IMG/VR virus record: IMGVR_UViG_3300045135_000138
Location: 1-20,487 of that record
DNA from: a virus
DNA: 20,487 bases
Strand: one strand, 5' to 3'
Part shown: in pieces, positions 7,808 through 17,396 of the stretch
Numbering within the stretch: position 1 is the stretch's first letter
Layout of the letters: each line of letters opens with the position of its first letter
The notes under the pieces: generated by a model
What the model was told of the DNA's origin: nothing
The model's input: the letters and a program-made list of their open reading frames with translations, nothing else
The model's database searches: none
Translations under genes and position numbers: made by a program

Positions 7808-8356
7808 ATGGCGTTTAACATTAACGACTTCTCAGCTGCCCTTACTGGTGGCGGTGCTCGTAACTCACTCTTCCAAGTGCAGATTACGAACCCTATCAGT
7901 GGCGTAGCTGATGCTCAAGTTCCGTTTATGTGTAAGGCTGCGTCTATCCCTGCGGCAACTCTAGGTACGATCGATGTTCCATACTTCGGTCGTCAGGTTA
8001 AGATCGCAGGCAACCGCACTTACGCTGAATGGCAACCAACAATCATCAACGACGAAGACTATGCGATTCGTAACGCTATGGAACAGTGGTCAAATGCGAT
8101 CAACTCATTCCAAGGCAACTTGAACAACGCTGGCGGCACTGCTCCTAGCCTGTACAAGTCTAACGCACAGGTTACTCAGTACTCTAAAGACGGTACTGTT
8201 CTTCGTGTCTACAACTTCGTTGGTATCTTCCCTACGGAAGTTTCTACTATCGATCTTTCTTGGGAACAAGAAGGCATTGAAGAGTTCACGGTAACGTTCG
8301 CATACGATTACTGGGAAGTTGTCGGTGGTACTACTGGCGATGCTGGCGGCATCTAA
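7808..8356 (+). CDS. 19: Tail tube protein gp19
   Basis: A 182-residue homologue of T4 gp19 (163 aa), the subunit of the inner tail tube through which DNA passes. Diagnostic parts are FMCKAASIPAATLGTIDVPY (about residues 39-58), the NDEDYAIRNAMEQWSNAI helix (about 77-94) and the C-terminal IFPTEVSTIDLSWEQ then EEFTVTFAYDYWEV. The spacing of the SIP..LG motif and final VTFAY strand recurs in the protein encoded at 14005-14523. A strong intrinsic terminator lies 17 bases after the stop, isolating this gene from gene 20. Confidence 0.95.
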   Translation: MAFNINDFSAALTGGGARNSLFQVQITNPISGVADAQVPFMCKAASIPAATLGTIDVPYFGRQVKIAGNRTYAEWQPTIINDEDYAIRNAMEQWSNAINSFQGNLNNAGGTAPSLYKSNAQVTQYSKDGTVLRVYNFVGIFPTEVSTIDLSWEQEGIEEFTVTFAYDYWEVVGGTTGDAGGI

Positions 8357-8373
8357 TCCGTAAAAAGTGATAT

Positions 8374-8412
8374 AGCGGGGAAGCATAAATAGTATACGCT
8401 TCCCCGCTTTTT
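8374..8412 (+). terminator. Intrinsic terminator between genes 19 and 20 with a late promoter in its loop
   Basis: Perfect 11-bp GC-rich stem AGCGGGGAAGC (8374-8384) / GCTTCCCCGCT (8398-8408) followed by a T run (8408-8412). The 13-base loop (8385-8397) contains ATAAATA. It is expected to stop abundant sheath/tube transcription before the portal gene, which is needed in only twelve copies. Confidence 0.88.
8384..8391 (+). promoter_or_regulatory. Late-promoter variant (CATAAATA) inside the terminator loop
   Basis: CATAAATA matches the late consensus at seven of eight positions. Initiation about six bases downstream would fall at 8397/8398, exactly where the terminator's right arm begins, so the late gene 20 transcript could not form the hairpin. 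The gene 20 ribosome binding site AGGAT (8418-8422) follows. Confidence 0.6.
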
Positions 8413-8428
8413 AATATAGGATATACGT

Positions 8429-9964
8429 ATGGAACTGTTTGGCTTTCAAATAGGTAAGAAACAAGAAGAAGAGCTGCCGAAAACGGTAGAATCATTTGCG
8501 CCCCCAGCAAACATAGATGGCGCTTATGACGTAAACGAAGGTGGCGCTTACGGAACAACCATCGACATGGATGGTTCGGCTTATCATGCTAAGAACGAAG
8601 CGGGACTCATTTCACGCTACCGTCAGATGGCTAGACAGCCTGAGTGTGAAAGAGCTATAGACGATATTATCAACGAAGCTATCATTACAGACGAGAAAGA
8701 ACCACCTGTATCTATCGTTGTTGATAACGTAGAAATGCCTGAGAAGATTAGAGAAGCGATTCGAGAAGAATTCGATAGCATAATCGATCTACTAAACTTC
8801 AATAACAACGGCTACGACATTTTTAGAAACTGGTACGTTGATGGTAGAATATTCTTCCATATCATGGTTGATACTGCTAATCCACGTGCGGGTATTCAAG
8901 AACTACGTTACATTGACCCTCGTAAAATTAAGAAGGTTCGTGTAGCAAAACGTAAAAACGAAATTAAGAACAATCAGTTTGTTCCTAAGCAATACGATGA
9001 GTATTACATCTACGCTGAAAGAGGCGTATCGGCAGGCAATCAGGGAATTAAAGTAGCTCCTGATTCTATCTGTTATGTTCACTCAGGCGTAATGGATGAG
9101 AACAACAAACTGATTCAGTCTCACCTACACAAAGCAATCAAGCCACTCAATCAGTTGCGTATGCTTGAAGATGCTACGGTAATTTACCGTCTAGCACGTG
9201 CGCCTGAGAGACGTATTTTCTACATCGACGTTGGTAACTTGCCTAAAGCGAAAGCTGAACAGTACCTACGTGATATGATGGCGAAGCATAAGAACAAACT
9301 AGTATACGATGCTAATAGCGGTGAAATTAGAGATGACCGCAAGTTTATGACTATGCTTGAAGACTACTGGCTACCTCGTCGTGAGGGCGGTAAGTCTACA
9401 GAGATTACTACGCTTCCTGCTGGACAGAACCTTGGCGAGCTTGAAGACGTTGATTACTTCCGCAAGAAGTTATATGAATCGCTAAACGTACCTATCGCTA
9501 GACTTGAGTCTGATTCTCAGTTTAATATGGGTCGCTCATCTGAGATCACCCGTGATGAGGTTAAGTTTGCTAGATTCATCAACCGTTTAAGAAACCGATT
9601 TAATGAGCTATTCAATACGCTACTAGAGCGCCAGCTTCTATTAAAAGGTATCATAACGAAACCTGAGTGGAAGATGATTAAGTCTCAGATCTTCTATGAC
9701 TTCCTAGAAGACAACCACTTTGCCGAGCTTAAAAATACAGAAATATTACAGAGCCGTCTTACAATACTACAAGACATTGATCAGTACGTTGGTAAATACT
9801 ACTCTGTTGAATATGTACGTAAACATGTATTACAACAAACTGAAGAAGATATCGAAGAGATTGATTCTCAGATTGAAATGGAACGTGAGGTTGAAGATGC
9901 CGACTTTGATTTTGGAGGCAACCAAGATCAGGATCAGGGCGGAAAACCCAACAATTTCCAGTAG
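8429..9964 (+). CDS. 20: Portal vertex protein gp20
   Basis: This 511-residue protein corresponds to T4 gp20 (524 aa), the dodecameric portal that nucleates prohead assembly and is the DNA channel. Recognisable blocks are RQPECERAIDDIINEAI (about 71-87), PDSICYVHSGVMDEN, IYRLARAPERRIFYIDVGNL (about 254-273), MLEDYWLPRREGGKSTEI and LNVPIARLESDSQFNMGRSS, all characteristic of T4-like portals and used as phylogenetic markers. The acidic, Gln/Gly-rich C-terminus is variable. The downstream late promoter at 9977 begins the prohead operon. Confidence 0.97.
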   Translation: MELFGFQIGKKQEEELPKTVESFAPPANIDGAYDVNEGGAYGTTIDMDGSAYHAKNEAGLISRYRQMARQPECERAIDDIINEAIITDEKEPPVSIVVDNVEMPEKIREAIREEFDSIIDLLNFNNNGYDIFRNWYVDGRIFFHIMVDTANPRAGIQELRYIDPRKIKKVRVAKRKNEIKNNQFVPKQYDEYYIYAERGVSAGNQGIKVAPDSICYVHSGVMDENNKLIQSHLHKAIKPLNQLRMLEDATVIYRLARAPERRIFYIDVGNLPKAKAEQYLRDMMAKHKNKLVYDANSGEIRDDRKFMTMLEDYWLPRREGGKSTEITTLPAGQNLGELEDVDYFRKKLYESLNVPIARLESDSQFNMGRSSEITRDEVKFARFINRLRNRFNELFNTLLERQLLLKGIITKPEWKMIKSQIFYDFLEDNHFAELKNTEILQSRLTILQDIDQYVGKYYSVEYVRKHVLQQTEEDIEEIDSQIEMEREVEDADFDFGGNQDQDQGGKPNNFQ

Positions 9965-13937: not shown

Positions 13938-13962
13938 AGAGGCTCTTCGGAGCCTCTTTTTT
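13938..13962 (+). terminator. Intrinsic terminator after gene 23
   Basis: Perfect 8-bp stem AGAGGCTC (13938-13945) / GAGCCTCT (13950-13957) closed by the extra-stable TTCG tetraloop, then six T (13957-13962). A canonical strong terminator for the capsid transcript. Confidence 0.95.
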
Positions 13963-13965
13963 ATG

Positions 13966-13973
13966 CCTAAATA
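13966..13973 (+). promoter_or_regulatory. Weak late-promoter-like element (CCTAAATA)
   Basis: CCTAAATA matches TATAAATA at six of eight positions, directly after the gene 23 terminator and 31 bases before ATG 14005. Some promoter is needed here if the terminator is efficient; this is the best candidate on the late side. Confidence 0.3.
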
Positions 13974-14004
13974 TAGGTGTAAACAAATTAATCGAGTCAA
14001 ACGT

Positions 14005-14523
14005 ATGGCTAACATTGAGAATAAAAACTTTCTATCTCCTATAGGGTTTCAGCTATCTGTACAGAAGCTTCCCCATGTAAACTACTTTTGTACATCAGCG
14101 TCTATCCCTGATATCAATCTAGGTCAAGCTGATTTGGAGAACACCTTCATCAGATTACCTATTCCGGGAGATAAGCTTACGTTTGGTCAGCTTAACCTAA
14201 GCTTCCGTGTAGATGAAGATTTAAAGAACTTCTCGGAGATCTATAACTGGATGCAGTCTATCGGTTTCCCTGACAACTTTGCTCAGCGAGCGCCAGCTCA
14301 ACGTGCTAACGAAAAGAATACAACGGCTACTACAGTATACAGCGATGCTTCGTTGATTATACTTACAAATCAATACAAGCCGAACATTGAAGTAAAGTTC
14401 CTCGATATGTACCCTGTATCACTCGGCTCGCTTGACTTCAACGTAGAGTCTACAGACGTAGCATACCTATCAGGCGAGGTCACATTCGCTTACAGAAAAT
14501 ATGAGTTGAACGTTTTGAACTAA
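14005..14523 (+). CDS. gp19-like tail structural protein (tube-fold paralogue)
   Basis: A 172-residue protein starting MANIENKNFLSPIGFQLSVQ. I prefer ATG 14005 over the in-frame ATG 13963 because the latter lies directly on the terminator T run and upstream of the only promoter-like element, and the extra residues are basic and unlike the rest. It shares a pattern with gp19 in this window: a Cys-x-Ser-Ala-Ser-Ile-Pro motif followed by LG (residues about 31-42), a helix with E.YNWMQSIGF, and a C-terminal MYPVSLGSLDF then GEVTFAYRKYEL. This suggests a tube-like fold as in T4 gp19 and baseplate-tube proteins. Homologues are common after gene 23 in marine T4-like phages and are labelled structural. 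Exact role unknown. Confidence 0.75.
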   Translation: MANIENKNFLSPIGFQLSVQKLPHVNYFCTSASIPDINLGQADLENTFIRLPIPGDKLTFGQLNLSFRVDEDLKNFSEIYNWMQSIGFPDNFAQRAPAQRANEKNTTATTVYSDASLIILTNQYKPNIEVKFLDMYPVSLGSLDFNVESTDVAYLSGEVTFAYRKYELNVLN

Positions 14524-16514: not shown

Positions 16515-16848
16515 TACGCTACTCACTGATGTTTTAGATTCAGATGAGAAGGTTCTTACAATCGTAAACCCGATAGAACTTATTACTGAAACGAATGGAA
16601 GGAATGCTACAGCTACATTGTTAGCACATCAGTGGTTGCCTTTATTCGAAGAAGAGAATATAATGTACCTTAATCAAGCGCATGTAGTTGGAGTCGCTAA
16701 GGCTACTGAAGATATGCAGGAATACTATGTGAGTGCTATTACTCAGATCCTTCATCCGGAGAAGGCTGAGGAAGAGCGCAAAGAACGTGAATACTACCTT
16801 GACCAAATGCTAAAGGTTATGGCTAACAACAATATGGAATATCATTAA
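16480..16848 (+). CDS. Small Sm-like (LSm-type) protein, uncharacterised
   Basis: A 122-residue protein. Residues 3-75 show the pattern of a small Sm-like beta barrel: QILKLTNGDTLLTDVLDSDE, then VLTIVNPIELI, a polar turn, HQWLPL and VVGVAKAT. A charged helix EEERKEREYYLDQML follows. Proteins with this opening lie beside gene 55 in several marine T4-like phages, to my recollection, without assigned function. It overlaps the end of uvsW by 35 bases and the start of gene 55 by one base, so it is cotranslated with both. An RNA-binding or polymerase-related role is possible from fold type and company only. Confidence 0.7.
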   Translation: MTVQILKLTNGDTLLTDVLDSDEKVLTIVNPIELITETNGRNATATLLAHQWLPLFEEENIMYLNQAHVVGVAKATEDMQEYYVSAITQILHPEKAEEERKEREYYLDQMLKVMANNNMEYH

Positions 16849-17396
16849 TGGAAAAGCGTAATAAGAAAAAGAACCCGCATTATGTGAATAATAAGGACTT
16901 CTTAGAGGCAATGGTTAATTTTCGTGAAGACGTTCTACGCTGCGAAGAAGAAGGGTTGGCTCGCCCTATCGTTCCTATCTATATCGCTGACTGTATTATG
17001 AAGATTGCTACGCACCTATCGTACAAACCAAACTTCGTAAACTACAGCTTCCGTGATGAGATGATATGCGATGGTATAGAAAACTGCCTACAGTATATTG
17101 ATAACTTCAACCCTGAGAAGTCTAACAACCCATTCGCTTACTTCACTCAGATTGTATACTATGCGTTCCTGCGTCGTATTCAGAAAGAGAAGAAGCACCT
17201 GTATACCAAGTATAAAGCCTCTGAGAATGCTAATATCTTTGGCGAGACGGCTGACGTACAGGATCACGACTCTGGCGTAGACTTCAACGACGAGATTAAG
17301 TACAACGAATGGTCTCAGGAATACATGTCCGACTTCATTCGTAACTTTGAAGAGACTAAGCGCAATAAGAAGAAGCGTAAAGTAGTTGTTGACTAA
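16848..17396 (+). CDS. 55: Late-transcription sigma factor gp55
   Basis: A 182-residue sigma70-family factor (T4 gp55, 185 aa) that directs host RNA polymerase to TATAAATA late promoters, many of which occur upstream in this window. The family opening HYVNNKDFLEAMVNFREDV and the region-2-like core YSFRDEMICDGIENCLQYID then NNPFAYFTQIVYYAFLRRIQ are clear; there is no sigma4 domain, as in T4. In T4 the C-terminus ends in a hydrophobic/acidic sliding-clamp-binding epitope (SLDFLYE type). Here the end is basic (TKRNKKKRKVVVD), and only SDFIRNFEE about 20 residues earlier is faintly similar. The start overlaps the previous stop (TAATG). Confidence 0.94.
   Translation: MEKRNKKKNPHYVNNKDFLEAMVNFREDVLRCEEEGLARPIVPIYIADCIMKIATHLSYKPNFVNYSFRDEMICDGIENCLQYIDNFNPEKSNNPFAYFTQIVYYAFLRRIQKEKKHLYTKYKASENANIFGETADVQDHDSGVDFNDEIKYNEWSQEYMSDFIRNFEETKRNKKKRKVVVD

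Follow-up and report, generated by a model that had tools for sequence, protein, structure and literature searches.

In the window analysed here, a 20,487-nt stretch of viral DNA, the late promoter box ahead of gene 20 lies in the loop of a strong hairpin in the gap between genes 19 and 20. This nested arrangement is conserved among relatives, and its stem covaries. The element is rather likely a compacted terminator–promoter junction, in which the hairpin would end or attenuate the gene 18-19 RNA, while the late transcripts of gene 20 would start inside the hairpin and escape it.

The 20.5-kb window is a piece of a T4-like phage with genes 13 to 23 in T4 order on one strand. Profile search of the window confirmed the products of genes 13, 17, 18, 19, 20 and 23; genes 14-16, 21 and 22 are named from their order. 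Gene 19 for the tail tube protein is located at 7808-8356 (+ strand; phrog_45, 4e-60; stop codon 8354-8356) and gene 20 for the portal protein at 8429-9964 (+ strand; phrog_213, 2e-206; ATG at 8429), leaving a gap of 72 bp from the gene 19 stop to the gene 20 ATG. The nearest named matches of the portal are cyanophage proteins with 57% identity. A gp55-like late sigma factor is encoded at 16848-17396 (+ strand; phrog_234, 2e-58) and is the expected reader of the late box. A classical TTCG terminator with a T run (13938-13962) is found just 3' of gene 23, and a second tail-tube-like gene (13963-14523, phrog_45) has its ATG directly after it. No match to Rfam is observed anywhere in the window.

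A late promoter box inside a hairpin

The hairpin spans 8374-8408 on the + strand. Its left (5') arm AGCGGGGAAGC (8374-8384) and right (3') arm GCTTCCCCGCT (8398-8408) form a perfect 11-bp stem with 8 GC pairs around the loop ATAAATAGTATAC (8385-8397). The U-tract TTTTT of the putative terminator (8408-8412) is placed immediately 3', which gives the GC-rich stem the structure of an intrinsic terminator. The loop of 13 bases is long, and a terminator scan with loops up to 8 therefore missed this hairpin. A T4-type late promoter consists of an 8-bp box about one helical turn before the start, with no -35 element. Such a box, CATAAATA, is present at 8384-8391 (+ strand) and matches the consensus TATAAATA at 7 of 8 positions with a C at -13, a position at which variation has been described in T4-like phages (PMC1524935). 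This C is also the last base of the left arm and closes the stem, and the remainder of the box is in the loop. With the box at -13 to -6, the T4 rule predicts that late transcripts start at the last loop base, 8397, or alternatively at 8398, the first base of the right arm. The nesting of the box in a terminator-like hairpin with a T run and a start at the loop/right-arm boundary had both been proposed in a first-pass annotation of the window; the former is confirmed by direct reading, conservation and covariation, and the latter agrees with the T4 rule.

Since the late promoter is inside the hairpin, the hairpin can act only on RNA coming from upstream. Read-through RNA (8357-8431) folds at -22.7 kcal/mol (z -3.4), and the late transcript from 8398 is predicted to fold at only -1.4 kcal/mol. 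The box itself is credible only via its position and its relatives, because one-mismatch late-box sites occur in the window at chance rate (36 found, 34 expected). For the same reason the question of chance is poorly answerable from a single sequence.

Another conserved element, GTGAT (8366-8370, + strand), is found 5' of the stem base only at the 19/20 junction. Of 63 non-redundant 19/20 boxes, 25 have it directly 5' of the stem, and none of 360 other late boxes does, so that a general upstream element of late promoters is rejected; conserved upstream elements are absent from T4 late promoters (PMC2988020). Its distances to the box and to the stem are about equally variable (variances 1.77 and 1.71). 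GTGAT is similar to the complement of AUCAC at the 3' end of 16S, with no start codon at Shine-Dalgarno (SD) distance.

Conservation, covariation and spread

Within the window's clade and its close kin, a strong hairpin encloses 30 of the 35 non-redundant 19/20 boxes, where 0.66 are expected from shuffled flanks; the shuffles preserve base composition and not relatedness, and the clades contain related rows. At the same loci 6 of 209 other late boxes are inside a hairpin (2.77 expected). An initial count over all loci gave 31 nested boxes against 0.58 expected, nearly all the strong ones at 19/20.

The first-pass annotation had suggested a covariance search and a comparison with shuffled sequences, and both came out in favour of the design, with nesting far above the shuffled expectation and a covarying stem. 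In the ten-pair core of 15 close relatives, 99.3% of the cells are paired, and 5 pairs with 20 cells are changed on both sides. None of 500 shuffles matches the observed paired cells, double-changed cells or covariation score, and the number of double-changed pairs is reached by 5 of 500. Shifting the partner by one, two or three columns makes the pairing collapse. Sequence similarity between the stems is low (AGCGGGGAAGC, GGACAGCACT, GGGGTGTATA, AGGGGCGACT and GGGTATATA are examples, all paired with their complements), while the ATAAATA of the late box is invariant among the 15 relatives. Thus the fold and not the sequence is kept around the box. That one fold, spelled differently, is found in dozens of relatives shows the nested arrangement to be maintained. 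In a sub-group of the window's relatives (L112, L115-L117, L127, L135, L136, L029, L131 and L132) the late box is spelled CTAAATA, a form described in Aeromonas phage Aeh1 (PMC1524935).

A tree of 76 portals contains a supported clade of 46 rows, nearly all nested, and given its starred branches the nested state must have changed six times or more. The junction classes were set by our own script with thresholds, and 'overlap' rows were counted as nested after reading. Separate nested cases on the tree are cyanophage Syn10, Rhizobium phage RHph_I1_18 (on a long branch, with unsure placement), L071 and L150. A second nested set is observed around RHph_I1_18 (11 of 28 junctions, 0.36 expected), with stems including AGAGAGCCGTTAT/ATAGCGGCTCTCT and AGGGCTGCTATA/TATAGCAGCCCT, and a weaker one in cyanophages (8 of 36 junctions, 0.33 expected). 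Judged from these sequence comparisons, the nested arrangement recurs in at least three lineages besides the window's clade.

Other arrangements are found in the same gap. The hairpin precedes the box in RB7 (T4 group), S16, Ahp1, S-CAM7 and L054-L064. In S-CAM7 and L054-L064 a classical terminator comes first and the late box separately after it, the same two parts at the same place but side by side and not nested; in RB7 hairpins and box are also side by side, without a clear U-tract. The box precedes the hairpin in KP15, 50AhydR13PP and the L065 group, and AB-Navy4 and P10VF have neither. Hairpins without a late box, which the first-pass annotation had named as evidence against the design, do occur (KVP40, L145, L350, L354 and L386), and in L139 and L140-L142 the hairpin is kept with a decayed box (ATATATA, ATTTATT). 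These boxless hairpins, however, are a minority in other lineages or represent losses within the clade.

When the genomes of seven named phages were scanned whole, the excess over expectation was clearest in RHph_I1_18 and RB7 and only slight in S-CAM7 and KP15. Nested late boxes away from 19/20 are found in RHph_I1_18 (MN988519) at 41123 (+) and 119581 (-) and in S-CAM7 (KU686212) at 109881 (+), followed by an Appr-1-p processing gene, a baseplate lysozyme gene and a DNA helicase gene, respectively; the one before the helicase has a T run after the stem. An AT-rich inverted repeat TTTTTATA...TATAAAAA surrounds a late box in L112 (7999), L117 (7068), L135 (8007), L094 (562) and L101 (6314). 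It seemingly lies in the gene 18 leader and is kept in distant relatives. At 17637 of L105 a 16-bp hairpin around a late box precedes a homologue of the window's open reading frame at 13963; with GGAG and ATG in or beside its 3' arm, it looks like a hairpin hiding a ribosome binding site (RBS).

Possible roles of the hairpin

In the reading that we favour, polymerase from the late promoters of genes 18 and 19 would produce RNA with both arms. The hairpin and the U-tract would end or attenuate this RNA after gene 19, leaving a protected 3' end and a drop in expression. From the gp55 late promoter in the loop, gene 20 transcripts would begin at the loop/right-arm boundary and continue into gene 20. 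With the promoter in the loop, these transcripts would lack the left arm, so they could not form the hairpin. Through this placement of the start, a terminator and a promoter could share about 35 bp without interference.

The likeliest role of the hairpin is to terminate or attenuate the 18-19 message, in view of three observations. In relatives, T makes up 59% of the first 8 bases beyond the stem versus 25% of the next 8; classical terminators occupy this site in other lineages; and a terminator is annotated in the 19/20 gap of the KP15 record. The best tails are canonical, such as TTTTTAAT in the window, TTTTTTGT in L173 and TTTTTATT in L030. Many relatives have an imperfect U-tract (AATCTTT, ATACTTT or AATTATT, for instance), so termination may be weak, or the hairpin may have a different role. 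The C at -13 and the relatives with a hairpin but no box, or with neither, also count against this reading.

The main rival is protection or processing of the 3' end. Here the hairpin would mainly stabilise the abundant 18-19 mRNA by blocking an exonuclease, or serve as a site of endonuclease cleavage in the AU-rich loop; the box inside would make a fresh gene 20 message, and termination would be minor. About half of the relatives keep the stem but have a poor U-tract, the loops are indeed AU-rich, and covariation shows only that a fold matters. The T enrichment after the stem and the canonical terminators at the same place in other lineages argue against it, and we regard it as unlikely. An extension of the terminator–promoter reading, to which we give only a small chance, is a hand-off. 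Polymerase stopped at the hairpin would stay on the DNA, as in recycling termination (PMC11347151), and re-initiate with gp55 at the late start about 10-15 bp away. If true, portal transcription would be coupled to tail-tube transcription and set as a fraction of its level.

A further possibility is that the hairpin hides the RBS, so that gp20 would be translated from late RNA and not from read-through RNA. RB7 serves as a positive control, since the scan of its genome recovers a nested hairpin (composed of AATACCTTCTA, TAAATACT and TAGGAGGTATT, with ATGAAT immediately after) that in our reading is the leader of gene e. In T4 gene e (PMC3014915) and I-TevI (PMC2988022) the late start likewise lies inside the hairpin. 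The SD of gene 20, AGGA (8418-8421, + strand), however, lies free outside the hairpin, 10 nt 3' of the stem. Its predicted unpaired probability in the window is 0.64 in read-through RNA and 0.58 in late RNA, and over 31 junctions the mean predicted accessibility is 0.51 versus 0.40. Because accessibility does not rise in late RNA, the SD is not sequestered by the 3' arm in these predictions, and we reject RBS hiding at gene 20 as very unlikely.

The situation is different at gene 13. In its leader (1367-1411) the box TATAAATA (1367-1374) lies 5' of the left arm (1374-1382), outside the loop, and the right arm carries the GGA of gene 13's own SD. Many relatives have TATAAATAGTCC...GGACTATT ahead of the gene 13 ATG. 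The SD in the window is predicted to be unpaired with probability 0.00 in read-through RNA and 0.13 in late RNA; relatives are not uniform in this respect (0.30 to 0.41). This hairpin probably is an RBS-hiding member of the gene e/I-TevI class. The first-pass annotation had seen in it the same geometry and used it as a second example against chance. Neither point survives, as the gene 13 box precedes the stem and the 3' arm holds the SD, whereas the gene 20 SD is free; the conclusion that the 19/20 arrangement is not accidental stands through the relatives instead.

A DNA-level element, with the inverted repeat extruding as a cruciform or binding a dimeric regulator over the promoter, is in line with the centring of the repeat on the late box. 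Between relatives, however, the stems have entirely different letters and still pair, which misfits a fixed protein site, and other late promoters at the same loci have little or no hairpin enrichment; both make this explanation highly improbable. Chance overlap of an AT-rich box and a terminator, despite the short gap of 72 bp and the commonness of CATAAATA-like sites, is refuted at the clade level by 30 nested boxes against 0.66 expected, by covariation and by recurrence, and is hardly credible at all.

Relation to known elements and significance

The 19/20 element is a variation on late promoters inside hairpins and on composite promoter–terminator motifs, both already known. PeSLs, which Arbiol in 2010 and Comeau in 2014 are said to have described, are composite promoter–terminator motifs of T4-like phages. 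They have early (sigma-70) promoters, are found in variable regions and, as repeated motifs, reportedly help to shuffle variable genes. A PeSL is like the 19/20 element in that a promoter and a terminator stem-loop are fused in one short intergenic motif, but the 19/20 element has a late promoter with its box in the loop and is located at a core gene junction; its box is of the late type, and no sigma-70-like promoter was found at 19/20 in our scan. The hairpins of T4 gene e, I-TevI and soc type (PMC3014915, PMC2988022) share with it a late promoter within the hairpin, and late transcripts predicted to lack the 5' arm, so that only read-through RNA folds. In that class the 3' arm hides the downstream RBS, whereas at 19/20 the RBS is free and a U-tract is present 3' of the stem. 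None of the papers that our literature search covered describes a late promoter in a terminator loop, although the PeSL work may include a late version.

Predictors that treat promoter and terminator as exclusive, or that limit loop size, will miss the nested design, as our terminator scan did. A nested terminator–promoter is a simple design, testable and reusable. In about 35 bp one message would be ended and the next begun, and the new RNA would escape the terminator through the position of its start. The recurrence of the design at the core junction between tail tube and portal genes, across several lineages of T4-like phages, is a sign that the ratio of both proteins is under selection.
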